In this document: positions 1,862 to 7,593 of the stretch, in pieces
Layout of the letters: every line of letters starts with the position of its first letter
Position numbering within the stretch: position 1 is the stretch's first letter
Source: Muribaculaceae bacterium
Lineage (GTDB): Bacteria > Bacteroidota > Bacteroidia > Bacteroidales > G3-4614
DNA: 46,586 nucleotides
Assembly: GCA_017546805.1 (NCBI GenBank)
Contig: JAFYRT010000044.1
Span: 1-46,586, forward strand
Direction of reading: 5' to 3'
Program-made: the position numbers and the translations under genes
Notes under the pieces: generated by a model
What the model was told of the DNA's origin: nothing
The model's input: the letters and a program-made list of their open reading frames with translations, nothing else
Databases searched by the model: none

Positions 1862-4800
1862 CTATTTATACTCATCCCAAGACAAGATTCCTACCTCGTC
1901 GATTGGTTTATTGATAAATGCATTGATATATGCTGTTGCAAGACGTGCATTTGTCAATAGAGGAATGTTGTGGTCAATTGCAGAACGACGTATGCGGTAA
2001 CCGTTAGTCAACTCACGTTTAGTATGGTTCTTTGGTATGTTAACAACCAAGTCGATAGCGTGATTTGAAAGAAGGTCAAGAATGTTCTCTCCCTCCTCGT
2101 CGGGCCAACATACAGGATATGCTTTAACACCGTTTGAGTTAAGGAATACAGATGTTCCCTCTGTTGCATATATTTTGTATCCGTTATCTGCCAATACTTT
2201 GCATGAATCCAATAAATCAACTTTACCACGAGCATCACCTGATGATACCAACACAGCTTTTGATTTATCGGGTACTCTGTGACCTACAGATATCATAGCA
2301 TTCAACAACGCCTCATCAAAGTCAGCTCCGATACATCCAACCTCTCCTGTTGATGACATATCTACTCCTAATACAGGGTCAGCTTTGTGCAAACGAGCAA
2401 ATGAGAATTGAGATGCTTTGATACCAATGTAATCGATATCGAATGTTGATGTATCTGCTTTCTCAACAGGCTCGCCCAACATAATGCGAGTGGCTGTTTC
2501 GATGAAGTTGCGTTTCAATATTTTTGATACGAATGGGAAACTGCGTGATGCACGTAGGTTACACTCAATTACTTTTACATCGTTGTTTTTAGCCAAATAT
2601 TGAATATTGAAAGGTCCTGAGATGTTTAACTCTTTTGCAATCTTCTTGCTTATACGTTTGATGCGGCGAACTGTCTCCATGTAGATTTTTTGTGCAGGGA
2701 AAACAAGTGTTGCATCTCCTGAGTGAACTCCTGCAAACTCGATGTGCTCTGAAATTGCGTACTCAATAACCTCTCCGTTGCGAGCTACTGCATCGAACTC
2801 AATCTCTTTAGCATTTTGCAAGAACTCTGACACCACTACGGGGAACTCTTTTGATACTTTTGCTGCAGCACCAAGGAACTCATACATTGAGTCGTGGTCG
2901 TAGCAAACATTCATTGCAGCACCTGACAATACGTAGCTTGGACGAATCAATACAGGGAATCCAACCTCCTCTACGAATTTGTCGATATCCTCAAAGCTTG
3001 TAAGCTCTTTCCAGCGTGGTTGGTCGATACCAAGAGAGTCAAGCATTGCAGAGAATTTATGACGGTTCTCAGCACGGTCGATTGAGATAGGAGATGTTCC
3101 CAATACAGGCACTTGACGACGATATAGTTTCATTGCCAAGTTGTTTGGAATTTGACCTCCCACTGATACGATAACTCCACGAGGTGACTCAAGGTCGATA
3201 ACGTCCAATACACGCTCGAAACTCAACTCATCAAAGTATAGTTTATCGCACATATCGTAGTCTGTCGATACAGTCTCTGGGTTGTAATTAATCATAATTG
3301 ATTTGTAACCCAAGTTGCGACATGTATTAACTGCGTTTACTGAACACCAGTCGAACTCAACCGAGCTACCGATACGATATGCTCCGGAACCCAATACTAC
3401 AATGTTTTTACCTGAATTGTAATCGTAACGTATTTGGTGAGCATCTACTCCGTATGTTACATATAGATAGTTTGTCAACTCGGGATATTCCGAAGCAACT
3501 GTGTTGATACGACATACTTTAGGAGTAATGTTCAAGCTCTTACGATACTCTCTCAAACGGATTATATCTGATTCGAATCCTGCTTCTGGATTCTCAACAT
3601 AACGTACAATTTGGAAGTCGCTAAATCCTAAACGTTTTGCCTCTGCCAATACATCTGCTGGCAACTCCTCAATGCGATTATATTTTGACAATACCAATGT
3701 ATAGTCATATATGTTTTTCAAACGAGACAAGAACCATGGGTCGATTTTTGTCAACTCCTCGATACGCTCTACACTATATCCCTCCTCGAATGCTTTTGCA
3801 ATTGCAAAGATACGAAGGTCTGTTGGGTGTGATAGAGAGTAGTCAAGATCGTCAAACGCAATGTCGCGGTTTCCTACGAATCCGTGCATTCCTTGACCAA
3901 TCATACGAAGACCTTTTTGGATAATCTCCTCAAAGCTCTTACCAATTGACATAATCTCACCAACTGATTTCATTGCAGAACCAATCTCACGGTCAACACC
4001 TGCAAATTTAGTCAAGTCCCAACGAGGAATCTTAACAATCATATAATCAACCGATGGTGCTACGTATGCCGAGTTTGGAGTTCCCATTTCACCGATTTGG
4101 TCAAGTGAGTAACCCAAAGCCAATTTAGCTGCAACAAATGCCAAAGGATAACCTGATGCTTTAGAAGCCAATGCCGAGCTACGGCTCAAACGAGCATTAA
4201 TCTCGATGATACGATAGTCGTTAGTTACAGCATTGAATGCATATTGAATGTTACACTCTCCTACAATACCGATGTGACGAACAACTTTCTTGGCAATGTC
4301 TTGCAACATTGTAATTTGCTCCTCAGAAAGCGATACGATAGGAGCAACTACGATACTCTCTCCTGTGTGGATACCAAGTGGGTCGAAGTTCTCCATTGGA
4401 ACTACAGTAAAGCAGTGGTCGTTCTTATCGCGAATAACCTCAAACTCTATCTCTTTCCAACCTTTCAATGACTCCTCAACAAGAATTTGTTTTGAGTGAG
4501 CAAGTGCGCTCTCGCAAAGAGTTCTGAATTCCTCTTCGTTGTTACAGATTCCCGAACCCAATCCTCCAAGAGCATATGCCGAACGTACCATTACGGGGAA
4601 ACCAATACGGTGAGCAACCTCAATTGCATCTTCCATTGTCTCTACCGCTTGTGATACGGGAGTTTTTGCTGAAATTTCGTCAAGTTTTTTAACGAACAAG
4701 TCGCGGTCCTCAGTAATCATGATTGCCTCAACCGATGTTCCTAAAACTTTAACTCCATATTTTTCAAGAGTTCCGTTTAGGTATAGCTCGGTTCCACAGT

Positions 4801-5083
4801 TCAATGCTGTTTGACCACCGAAAGCCAAAAGAATACCATCGGGACGCTCTTTTTGAATTACTTTCTCTACAAAGTCAGGAGTGATGGGAAGGAAATATAC
4901 TTTATCTGCCACTCCCTCTGAAGTTTGTATAGTCGCGATATTGGGGTTAATCAAAACTGTCGAAATTCCCTCCTCTCGCAATGCTTTTAACGCTTGTGAT
5001 CCAGAGTAATCAAACTCGCCGGCTTGTCCAATCTTTAAGGCTCCTGAGCCAAGCAACAATACTTTTTTCATTTTCATCTCCAT
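1862..5083 (-). CDS. carB: carbamoyl-phosphate synthase large subunit
   Basis: The 1073-residue product is full length for CarB and makes carbamoyl phosphate from bicarbonate, ammonia (from glutamine via CarA) and two ATP, for pyrimidine and arginine synthesis. Two duplicated ATP-grasp halves are visible: the N-terminal half begins VLLLGSGALKIGQAGEFDYS, and the second begins near residue 565 with VLGSGAYRIGSSVEFDW. ARLSRSSALASKASGYPLAF closes the first half and NLRASRSFPFVSK the second. The last ~130 residues form the MGS-like allosteric domain (KAVLVSSGDARGKVDLL). No carA is next to it in this window. Downstream it converges on GT90; upstream it is divergent from glnA across a 320-bp gap containing a structured leader. 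The first ATG was kept, though MKKVLLLG three codons in is an equally good start. Confidence 0.97.
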   Translation of the reverse strand: MEMKMKKVLLLGSGALKIGQAGEFDYSGSQALKALREEGISTVLINPNIATIQTSEGVADKVYFLPITPDFVEKVIQKERPDGILLAFGGQTALNCGTELYLNGTLEKYGVKVLGTSVEAIMITEDRDLFVKKLDEISAKTPVSQAVETMEDAIEVAHRIGFPVMVRSAYALGGLGSGICNNEEEFRTLCESALAHSKQILVEESLKGWKEIEFEVIRDKNDHCFTVVPMENFDPLGIHTGESIVVAPIVSLSEEQITMLQDIAKKVVRHIGIVGECNIQYAFNAVTNDYRIIEINARLSRSSALASKASGYPLAFVAAKLALGYSLDQIGEMGTPNSAYVAPSVDYMIVKIPRWDLTKFAGVDREIGSAMKSVGEIMSIGKSFEEIIQKGLRMIGQGMHGFVGNRDIAFDDLDYSLSHPTDLRIFAIAKAFEEGYSVERIEELTKIDPWFLSRLKNIYDYTLVLSKYNRIEELPADVLAEAKRLGFSDFQIVRYVENPEAGFESDIIRLREYRKSLNITPKVCRINTVASEYPELTNYLYVTYGVDAHQIRYDYNSGKNIVVLGSGAYRIGSSVEFDWCSVNAVNTCRNLGYKSIMINYNPETVSTDYDMCDKLYFDELSFERVLDVIDLESPRGVIVSVGGQIPNNLAMKLYRRQVPVLGTSPISIDRAENRHKFSAMLDSLGIDQPRWKELTSFEDIDKFVEEVGFPVLIRPSYVLSGAAMNVCYDHDSMYEFLGAAAKVSKEFPVVVSEFLQNAKEIEFDAVARNGEVIEYAISEHIEFAGVHSGDATLVFPAQKIYMETVRRIKRISKKIAKELNISGPFNIQYLAKNNDVKVIECNLRASRSFPFVSKILKRNFIETATRIMLGEPVEKADTSTFDIDYIGIKASQFSFARLHKADPVLGVDMSSTGEVGCIGADFDEALLNAMISVGHRVPDKSKAVLVSSGDARGKVDLLDSCKVLADNGYKIYATEGTSVFLNSNGVKAYPVCWPDEEGENILDLLSNHAIDLVVNIPKNHTKRELTNGYRIRRSAIDHNIPLLTNARLATAYINAFINKPIDEVGILSWDEYK

Positions 5084-5123: not shown

Positions 5124-5161
5124 AAAAAAAATACCGACACCTCGGTTAAAGAGGACGCCGG
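5124..5161 (-). terminator. intrinsic terminator inside the carB leader (candidate attenuator)
   Basis: Read on the minus strand, CCGGCG (5161-5156), one bulged base (5155) and CCTC (5154-5151) pair across a 7-nt loop with GAGG (5143-5140) and TGTCGG (5139-5134; two G-U pairs). TAT and then eight T (5131-5124) follow. This is a factor-independent terminator lying between the carB promoter and start codon, about 40 bp before the ATG. Confidence 0.75.
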
Positions 5162-5173
5162 TTTACTTCTGTT

Positions 5174-5203
5174 TCGGTTACATATTTTAGTAAAGTTAAC
5201 CGA
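5174..5203 (-). promoter_or_regulatory. alternative-pairing element in the carB leader
   Basis: On the minus strand TCGGTTA (5203-5197) pairs perfectly with TAACCGA (5180-5174). The same element extended to TCGGTTAA (5203-5196) is also perfectly complementary to TTAACCGA (5149-5142), which forms the loop and 3' arm base of the downstream terminator. The two pairings are mutually exclusive, the classic antiterminator arrangement. I recognise no PyrR-binding or other named motif here. Confidence 0.55.
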
Positions 5204-5223
5204 CGGTCTTTTTTCACCGATTG

Positions 5224-5231
5224 CAAAGATA
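5224..5231 (-). promoter_or_regulatory. -7 promoter box (TATCTTTG) for carB
   Basis: TATCTTTG on the minus strand fits the TAnnTTTG consensus. Transcription would start near 5219, giving a leader of roughly 135 nt that contains the alternative hairpins and the terminator. No good -33 TTG is seen at 19-21 bp. Confidence 0.6.
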
Positions 5232-5403: not shown

Positions 5404-7593
5404 ATGCCAACATCTTTAAGATTCAGAGTTATAGAAAATGCGTTCTTGAAACGCCCCGTTGAGGTTAAACTTCCCGATGAACGTCCATCGGAATATTTTG
5501 GAAAATATGTATTCAACCGCGCAAAAATGCAACAGTTTTTACCACAAGATATATACGAGAAACTTACTAACTCTATTGATAACGACACGCCTATTAATCG
5601 CGATATTGCTGATGCAGTAGCAGAAGGAATGAAAAAATGGGCAATCAGTATGGGTGCTACGCACTACACACACTGGTTTCACCCACTGACCGAAGGTACT
5701 GCAGAGAAACACGATGCCTTTGTTGAATTGGACAAAGACGGCAATATGATTGAGCGTTTAAGCGGTAAGTTGCTTATACAACAAGAACCCGATGCTTCGA
5801 GTTTCCCCAATGGTGGTATAAGAAACACATTTGAGGCTCGCGGATACTCTGCTTGGGACCCATCTTCTCCTGCATTTATTGTTGATGATACATTGTGTAT
5901 CCCAACTGTGTTTATTGCATATACAGGAGAGTCGTTGGACTACAAAGCTCCTCTTTTGAAAGCTCTTCACGCAGTTGACAAAGCAGCTGTTGAAGTTTGC
6001 AAATATTTTAATCCTGAAGTAAAAAAGGTTATAGCATATTTGGGTTGGGAACAAGAGTTTTTCTTGGTTGACGAGGGATTGTATGCCGCTCGTCCCGATT
6101 TGCTTTTGACAGGACGCACCCTTATGGGACACGAAAGTTCAAAGAACCAACAATTGGACGACCACTATTTCGGTGCTATCCCCTCTCGTGTAATTGAGTT
6201 TATGAAGGAGGTTGAGATTGAGTGTTTGAAACTTGGTATTCCTTTGAAGACTCGCCACAACGAGGCCGCTCCAAATCAGTTTGAGTTTGCTCCAATTTTT
6301 GAGGAGTGCAATCTTGCAAACGACCACAACCTATTAATGATGGCTACTATGCGTAAAGTTGCACGAAACCATGGTTTTAGAGTATTATTGCACGAAAAAC
6401 CTTTCAAAGGGGTTAATGGTTCGGGTAAACACAATAACTGGTCGCTTGGAACAGACAACGGCATTATGCTAATGTCTCCCGGCAAAACTAAAAACGACAA
6501 TCTTCGCTTTATTACATTCATTGTAAATGTTATTAAAGCTGTTTATAAATACAACGGATTACTTAAAGCAAGTATATCTTCGGCAACCAATGCTCACCGT
6601 TTGGGTGCGGCAGAGGCTCCTCCTGCAATTATCTCAATCTTCCTTGGTTCACACTTAACTAAAGTGTTGCAACACATCGGTAGTGAGGATTTGGATAACT
6701 TGGAGGCATCATCAAAACAAGGTATAAACTTGGATATTCCACAAATACCCGAACTTTTGATTGACAATACCGACCGCAACAGAACATCACCTTTTGCATT
6801 TACAGGAAACCGTTTTGAGTTCCGTGCCATTGGAGCAGAGGCAAACTGCGCATCGGCGATGATTGCACTTAACTCGGCAGTTGCAAAACAACTTAACGAC
6901 TTTAAACGCGATGTTGACGAGAAGATAGCAATGGGAATAGACCAACAAAATGCTATTCTTTCGGTTCTTGGAGAGTATGTTAAAGAGAGCATGGATATCT
7001 GCTTTGACGGTAACGGATATAGCGATGAGTGGAAACAAGAGGCTGCTCGCCGAGGTTTGGATTGCGAAACAAGCGTTCCTCTAATATTCGATAACTATAT
7101 GACAAAAGAGACAATCGAGATGTTCTCTGAAACAGGAGTTATGACCGTAAAAGAGTTGGAGGCTCGCAACGAGGTTAAGTGGGAAACATACACTAAAAAG
7201 ATTCAAATTGAGGCTCGTGTACTTGGCGACTTGGCTAAAAACCATGTTATACCAACAGCAACAAAATATCAAAGCGAACTTATTGAAAACGCATATAAAT
7301 TAAAACTTCTATTCTCTGCTGAAAAAGCAGAAAAACTTTGTGGTAAGGAGTTGGATACTATCGAAGATATAGGCACAAGAGTTGAGGCTATCAAAACATT
7401 TGTTGATGATATGATTGCCGCTCGTAAAGAGGCCAACAAGATTGAGGATATGCGTGAACGTGCCATTGCATACCATGATACCGTTTCGCCTTATTTCCAA
7501 AAAATCAGAGCAAACATCGACCGCTTGGAGTTGGTAGTTGACGACAAAATGTGGACACTGCCAAAATACAGAGAGTTGTTGTTTATAAGATAG
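5404..7593 (+). CDS. glnA: glutamine synthetase type III
   Basis: A 729-residue glutamine synthetase of the long type III (GlnN) family, about 250 residues longer than type I, catalysing ATP-dependent ligation of ammonia to glutamate. Visible signatures are HYTHWFHPLTEGTAEKHDAF at 87-106, GWEQEFF (metal-binding Glu) at 214-220, RHNEAAPNQFEFAP at about 284-297, HEKPFKGVNGSGKHNNWSL at 330-348 and NRTSPFAFTGNRFEFRAIG further on. The type III group lacks the adenylylation loop of type I. It stands alone with its own promoter and a downstream hairpin. Being divergent from carB, a major glutamine consumer, the two could be co-regulated, but no shared operator was recognised. Confidence 0.96.
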   Translation: MPTSLRFRVIENAFLKRPVEVKLPDERPSEYFGKYVFNRAKMQQFLPQDIYEKLTNSIDNDTPINRDIADAVAEGMKKWAISMGATHYTHWFHPLTEGTAEKHDAFVELDKDGNMIERLSGKLLIQQEPDASSFPNGGIRNTFEARGYSAWDPSSPAFIVDDTLCIPTVFIAYTGESLDYKAPLLKALHAVDKAAVEVCKYFNPEVKKVIAYLGWEQEFFLVDEGLYAARPDLLLTGRTLMGHESSKNQQLDDHYFGAIPSRVIEFMKEVEIECLKLGIPLKTRHNEAAPNQFEFAPIFEECNLANDHNLLMMATMRKVARNHGFRVLLHEKPFKGVNGSGKHNNWSLGTDNGIMLMSPGKTKNDNLRFITFIVNVIKAVYKYNGLLKASISSATNAHRLGAAEAPPAIISIFLGSHLTKVLQHIGSEDLDNLEASSKQGINLDIPQIPELLIDNTDRNRTSPFAFTGNRFEFRAIGAEANCASAMIALNSAVAKQLNDFKRDVDEKIAMGIDQQNAILSVLGEYVKESMDICFDGNGYSDEWKQEAARRGLDCETSVPLIFDNYMTKETIEMFSETGVMTVKELEARNEVKWETYTKKIQIEARVLGDLAKNHVIPTATKYQSELIENAYKLKLLFSAEKAEKLCGKELDTIEDIGTRVEAIKTFVDDMIAARKEANKIEDMRERAIAYHDTVSPYFQKIRANIDRLELVVDDKMWTLPKYRELLFIR

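Follow-up and report, generated by a model that had tools for sequence, protein, structure and literature searches.

The contig analysed here, a 46,586-nt stretch of DNA from a Muribaculaceae bacterium (hereafter the window), encodes a large subunit of carbamoyl-phosphate synthase, and a hairpin followed by a run of T lies between the promoter and the start of this carB gene. The locus raises the question of whether the hairpin controls carB and, if so, how it could be switched and what it might sense. Its setting is as follows:

1862..5083, minus strand: carB, carbamoyl-phosphate synthase large subunit; an ORF with a TIGR01369 score of 1414.9 bits, placed by a tree in the clade of lone paralogues
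5404..7593, plus strand: glutamine synthetase gene, divergent from carB; an ORF named from its sequence
5224..5231, minus strand: -7 promoter box of the Bacteroidota type, TATCTTTG, recognized by sequence and conserved in congeners along with the 5' block that follows it

The glutamine synthetase is presumably of type III (GlnN). Since this neighboring gene is divergent, the terminator cannot belong to an upstream gene; with carB running from 5083 to 1862 on the minus strand and the glutamine synthetase gene beginning at 5404, the transcript of carB itself is the only one expected at the hairpin (5162-5133). Judging by the -7 box, carB transcription probably starts at about 5220. No carA was found in the genome of the window (G000; 96.6% complete), nor in those of the congeners G001, G002, G004, G005, and G006, the last of which is 99% complete. 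A CarB without CarA (1862-5083) raises the question of its source of ammonia; here its gene is divergent from that of a glutamine synthetase.

Folding and sequence comparison divide the leader into the following elements:

5204..5219, minus strand: P1, a 5'-terminal hairpin with an A-rich loop, CGGT (5219-5216) pairing with ACCG (5207-5204)
5198..5220, minus strand: 5' strand of the antiterminator, which is the entire 5' block TCGGTGAAAAAAGACCGTCGGTT; pairs with 5163-5142 and is kept in G001, G003, and G007
5174..5203, minus strand: P2, an anti-antiterminator hairpin, TCGGTTA (5203-5197) with TAACCGA (5180-5174); predicted in the OFF fold of G000
5142..5163, minus strand: 3' strand of the antiterminator, formed by the 5' arm and loop of the terminator; from folding and shuffle tests
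5133..5162, minus strand: intrinsic terminator hairpin of 11 bp with one bulge and a 7-nt loop, -15.7 kcal/mol
5124..5131, minus strand: U tract of the terminator, eight T, read from the sequence and separated from the hairpin by one A

The terminator reads ACCGGCG-t-CCTC / TTTAACC / GAGGTGTCGGT, and 5162-5156 pair with 5139-5133 and 5154-5151 with 5143-5140, leaving T5155 bulged. A preliminary description of this DNA, made from the sequence alone, had correctly placed a hairpin followed by eight T here, but gave its stem 10 bp where we count 11 pairs and one bulged T; its positions for the -7 box TATCTTTG (5231-5224), for TCGGTTAA (5203-5196), and for TAACCGA (5180-5174) all match the minus strand. 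As in other attenuators that use an intrinsic terminator, a GC-containing hairpin with a U tract stands between promoter and gene, and there is no co-directional gene upstream. The 97-nt leader as a whole folds with an energy of -27.4 kcal/mol (z of -2.56), which 4 of 200 shuffled sequences equaled.

When the 3' arm of the terminator is absent or held unpaired, the 5' block (5220-5198) folds onto 5163-5142. Its main partner is AACCGGCGTC (5163-5154) in the 5' arm of the terminator rather than the loop alone; since the loop pairs best with the extreme 5' end of the transcript, TCGGT at 5220-5216, the entire 5' block constitutes the antiterminator strand. The competitor proposed earlier, the loop-plus-arm segment TTAACCGA at 5149-5142, was thus right in position and outline, but the terminator's 5' arm competes more strongly. 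The pairing energy of the first 24 nt with the 5' arm plus loop was reached by only 9 and 8 of 1000 dinucleotide shuffles of the 5' and the 3' strand, respectively, in G000, and the same test gave 1 and 0 in G001, 9 and 1 in G007, and 13 and 0 in G003. Ensemble folding of lengthening transcripts yielded P2, then the antiterminator, then the terminator, in identical order in all four species, and in G000 the antiterminator phase spans transcript lengths of about 65-85. The two mutually exclusive folds that had been anticipated, one of them without the terminator, are present by computation and kept in three congeners. At equilibrium the full-length leader favors the terminator, so the ON state needs an active signal or kinetics. 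Once the antiterminator forms, a hairpin of 5 bp persists together with the U tract and might still terminate.

These results support the attenuator reading of the carB leader, which is probably a real and previously undescribed control element. We consider it likely that the leader is a cis-acting transcription attenuator with OFF and ON folds of its first 23 nt. RNA polymerase would start at about 5220. In the OFF state, the first 23 nt would fold as P1 and P2 and leave the 5' arm of the terminator free, so that the terminator (5162-5124, U tract included) would form; in the ON state, they would pair with the terminator's 5' arm and loop, and transcription would continue into carB. The anatomy, the mutual exclusion, and the folding order were obtained by computation; from them we infer termination in the cell, its regulation, and, as a best guess, a signal from pyrimidine or arginine metabolism that tips the balance between the folds. 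In congeners bearing carAB, an additional domain of ~100 nt would be the natural candidate for sensing. In the window, sensing would occur at most through the 5' hairpins or the speed of the polymerase, or there may be no response.

The comparison covered eight species of one genus, from G000 (the window) to G007. Four of them (G000, G001, G003, and G007) carry the leader with both arms conserved, and in the other four (G002, G004, G005, and G006) the leader is short and contains P1 alone. The terminator and TCGGTT accordingly co-occur, being both present in four congeners and both absent in four. Between G001 and the window, the 5' block and the terminator are nearly invariant, differing by single-base indels only, while fourfold sites of carB have an identity of 0.756 and the intervening stretch has diverged; the 34-nt spacer of the window leader shows no conservation between the two. 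A U tract follows the hairpin in each of the other carriers (9 nt in G001, 7 in G007, and 6 in G003), and the stem changes in these three species (A-U to G-U, G-U to A-U, and G-U to G-C) mostly preserve pairing. All eight species keep P1 fully paired, its closing pair being C-G, U-G, or U-A. P2 is predicted as 6 bp in G001, and in G003 and G007 its role is filled by a different partner, CGG-CUC/GAG-GCCG. The two-state logic is common to G001, G003, and G007 despite unrelated spacers, and all four leaders with a terminator hold a mutually exclusive, conserved antiterminator, although few of these sequences are independent. Covariation among relatives, which had been suggested as a check, was found in part: there are compensatory changes in P1 and in the additional domain of G003 and G007, but in the antiterminator/terminator core the changes are confined to one side of the pair and stay within the range of shuffles. 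Covariation of the core is compatible with the structure rather than decisive, the four sequences amounting in effect to two pairs.

In G003 and G007, the homologous leader precedes carAB; in G003, the contig ends ahead of carA, which opens another contig. Promoter, 5' block, and terminator are as in the window, with ~100 nt in addition. The consensus fold of the two leaders has 51 pairs, with three double compensatory changes and none broken. Fourfold sites of carA are only 50% identical between the two species, whereas hardly any difference is seen in the 5' block, the terminator, or a 49-nt block in the center. Within these carA leaders (locus L007, 1516-1694, in G007; locus L117, 288-463, in G003), the order is antiterminator strand, conserved structured domain GAGGCCGGGAAGTTCGGAATCCGTTTCGGAAGTTCTCAGGAA, terminator. 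The window leader lacks this structured domain, and Rfam returned no match to it. A conserved aptamer domain, which marks a metabolite riboswitch when it covaries across many species, is absent from the window, and the structured domain of G003 and G007 comes from two sequences. Tentatively, the carA leader of these species may represent an orphan class of riboswitch or protein-binding RNA for carbamoyl-phosphate synthesis within one genus of Bacteroidales, whose expression platform is shared with the paralogous lone carB, without the sensor domain in the lineage of the window.

Many Bacteroidales hold two carB paralogues, one adjoining carA and one alone; in some genomes (G065 and G110), the lone carB is the sole one. 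When 51 CarB proteins were placed in a maximum-likelihood tree, two deep clades emerged, lone and carAB. The lone clade holds, beside Muribaculaceae (SH-aLRT 100), CarB of the window, G001, G002, G004, G005, and G006, and the carAB clade holds that of G003 and G007. Simple loss of carA, by which carB would have inherited the carA leader from a carAB operon, was considered and is ruled out by these two deep clades. Since the leader stands before carAB in G003 and G007 and before a lone carB of the other clade elsewhere, a single attenuator module is shared by two car units, which points to selection on the leader itself. The module is specific to the car promoter and occurs in a single copy per genome. 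With eight genomes compared, duplication, transfer, and retention of the module during replacement of its gene are all conceivable. A switch kept at the car promoter through a change of the downstream paralogue would offer a directly testable case of regulatory module retention.

Lone carB genes of other Bacteroidales, including Bacteroides, Parabacteroides, and Paludibacteraceae-like genomes, also have a terminator, about 60-110 nt before carB, often of the form AATGCGTTA...TAACGCATT-T8 and often with the stem TGCGTT/AACGCA. E. coli pyrBI is laid out with a leader ORF that reaches the terminator and has a U-rich end. There, pyrL encodes a leader peptide, and pyrLBI is controlled by attenuation with a pause (PMC9291695). 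A similar layout was seen about 60-270 nt upstream of carB at loci L019-L093 (e.g., L047, L058, L066, and L075). Among non-redundant lone-carB leaders with a recognizable promoter, 30 of 33 have an ATG frame of 18 or more codons that opens no more than 70 nt from the start site and extends to the terminator, vs. 7.5 expected from shuffled leaders; the U content is 43% over the final 45 nt ahead of the terminator vs. 27% upstream. From their sequences, lone-carB leaders look like carriers of a pyrBI-like attenuator, different in design from the switch in the window, and the lone CarB may well be the enzyme under pyrimidine control. Such an attenuator would mean that a classic mechanism of E. 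coli also operates in a distant phylum, and it is perhaps a larger discovery than the switch of the window. In two lone-carB leaders (L069 and L076), the terminator is kept, the leader ORF is truncated, and the U-rich tract is missing, paralleling the possible loss of a sensor in the window. Terminators are found within 200 nt in 4 of 34 carA leaders, one of them that of G007 itself.

The abundance of this layout in lone-carB leaders makes it conceivable that the window leader, too, works by a translated leader peptide that couples the ribosome to RNA polymerase, so that under UTP shortage the ribosome blocks the terminator. An open GTG frame indeed runs from ~5216 to the terminator loop in the window. 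However, this frame ends early in G001 and its start codon is missing in G003 and G007, no ORF reaching the terminator is kept among the four carriers, and there is no U-rich pause tract ahead of the terminator; we regard coupling as very unlikely here. Conserved leader peptides were sought in the genus and rejected, as the frames of G000, G001, G003, and G007 are not homologous. A 17-codon frame common to G003 and G007 was likewise discarded: its fourfold sites are unchanged, compared with 50% identity in carA, indicating constraint at the nucleotide level rather than coding. It is also highly improbable that the inverted GGT-ACC repeats at the start site are a DNA operator that binds a repressor, the terminator-like hairpin being incidental. 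Most congeners do have GGT(N8)ACC where transcription starts, but the DNA palindrome is broken in G003 and G007 (ACT) and in G005 (GCC), which keep the RNA pair through G-U, and in all four carriers the hairpin has pair-preserving changes in its arms and is followed by 6-9 T. That an AT-rich leader with TCGGT/ACCG repeats merely yields apparent alternative folds by chance, without function, would fit the absence of the element from half of the congeners; given the shuffle tests, conservation against a neutral identity of 50%, and the same architecture at two paralogous loci, it is hardly credible.

A different possibility, which we hold to be unlikely but of some weight, is that the ~100-nt domain was the ancestral sensor and was lost in the lineage of the window. 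The terminator left behind would be leaky and constitutive, would do no more than lower carB expression, and would be headed for the loss seen in G002, G004, G005, and G006. The unconserved 34-nt spacer of G000 and G001 and the four congeners without a terminator agree with such decay, as does the fate of L069 and L076. On the other hand, G000 and G001 have retained the antiterminator strand and P2, for which a plain leaky terminator has no need, and either form may be ancestral.

Searches with covariance models of the attenuator leaders gave no convincing match beyond the genus: model R1 matched only G000, G003, and G007 among 247 Bacteroidales genomes, and model R2, among 295, matched G003 and G007 along with two borderline sequences (E about 0.03) taken as chance. 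The preliminary description had recognized no PyrR or known riboswitch motif, in agreement with Rfam, where no family matches the leader; sub-threshold Rfam matches were eukaryotic or unrelated and were also attributed to chance. In the literature found, with subscription papers and supplements outside the search, the switch is not described. The B. thetaiotaomicron transcriptome makes general mention of leader-peptide-like sORFs in long 5' UTRs (PMC7366714), and the texts of two further papers (PMC8040213; PMC2864571) do not mention carbamoyl-phosphate synthesis. Control of pyrimidine and arginine synthesis in Bacteroidota appears largely undescribed in searchable papers.

Among known systems, terminator/antiterminator attenuators such as the PyrR-dependent pyr leaders of Bacillus and riboswitch platforms have a comparable layout, in that antiterminator, anti-antiterminator, and terminator overlap within the 5' leader, upstream of a gene for pyrimidine or arginine precursors; in the window, however, the antiterminator strand is the extreme 5' end of the transcript, and Rfam finds no match. 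UTP-sensitive attenuation of E. coli pyrBI (pyrL) likewise places an intrinsic terminator between promoter and pyrimidine-pathway gene, and its analogue in other Bacteroidales precedes the same gene, the lone carB, but the window leader lacks a conserved ORF and a U-rich pause tract. Attenuation in Bacteroidota leaders is also known from the Bacteroid-trp RNA (RF01692), which serves different genes and which Rfam did not match here, and from Flavobacterium (PMC9723704), where it is peptide-based and concerns other genes. At promoter P1 of E. coli carAB, UTP-sensitive reiterative transcription (PMC6245113) also exerts pyrimidine control of car at the first transcribed bases, but involves no terminator, and the initially transcribed region of the window leader has no run of T. 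Inspection by eye of the pyrB leader in the window's genome revealed no comparable element; pyrB promoters of the genus (L104, L108, and L109) have in common a conserved AATAAGTCTGTTTTTTTTTATAGTTTTGTA stretch, around which the leader is variable.
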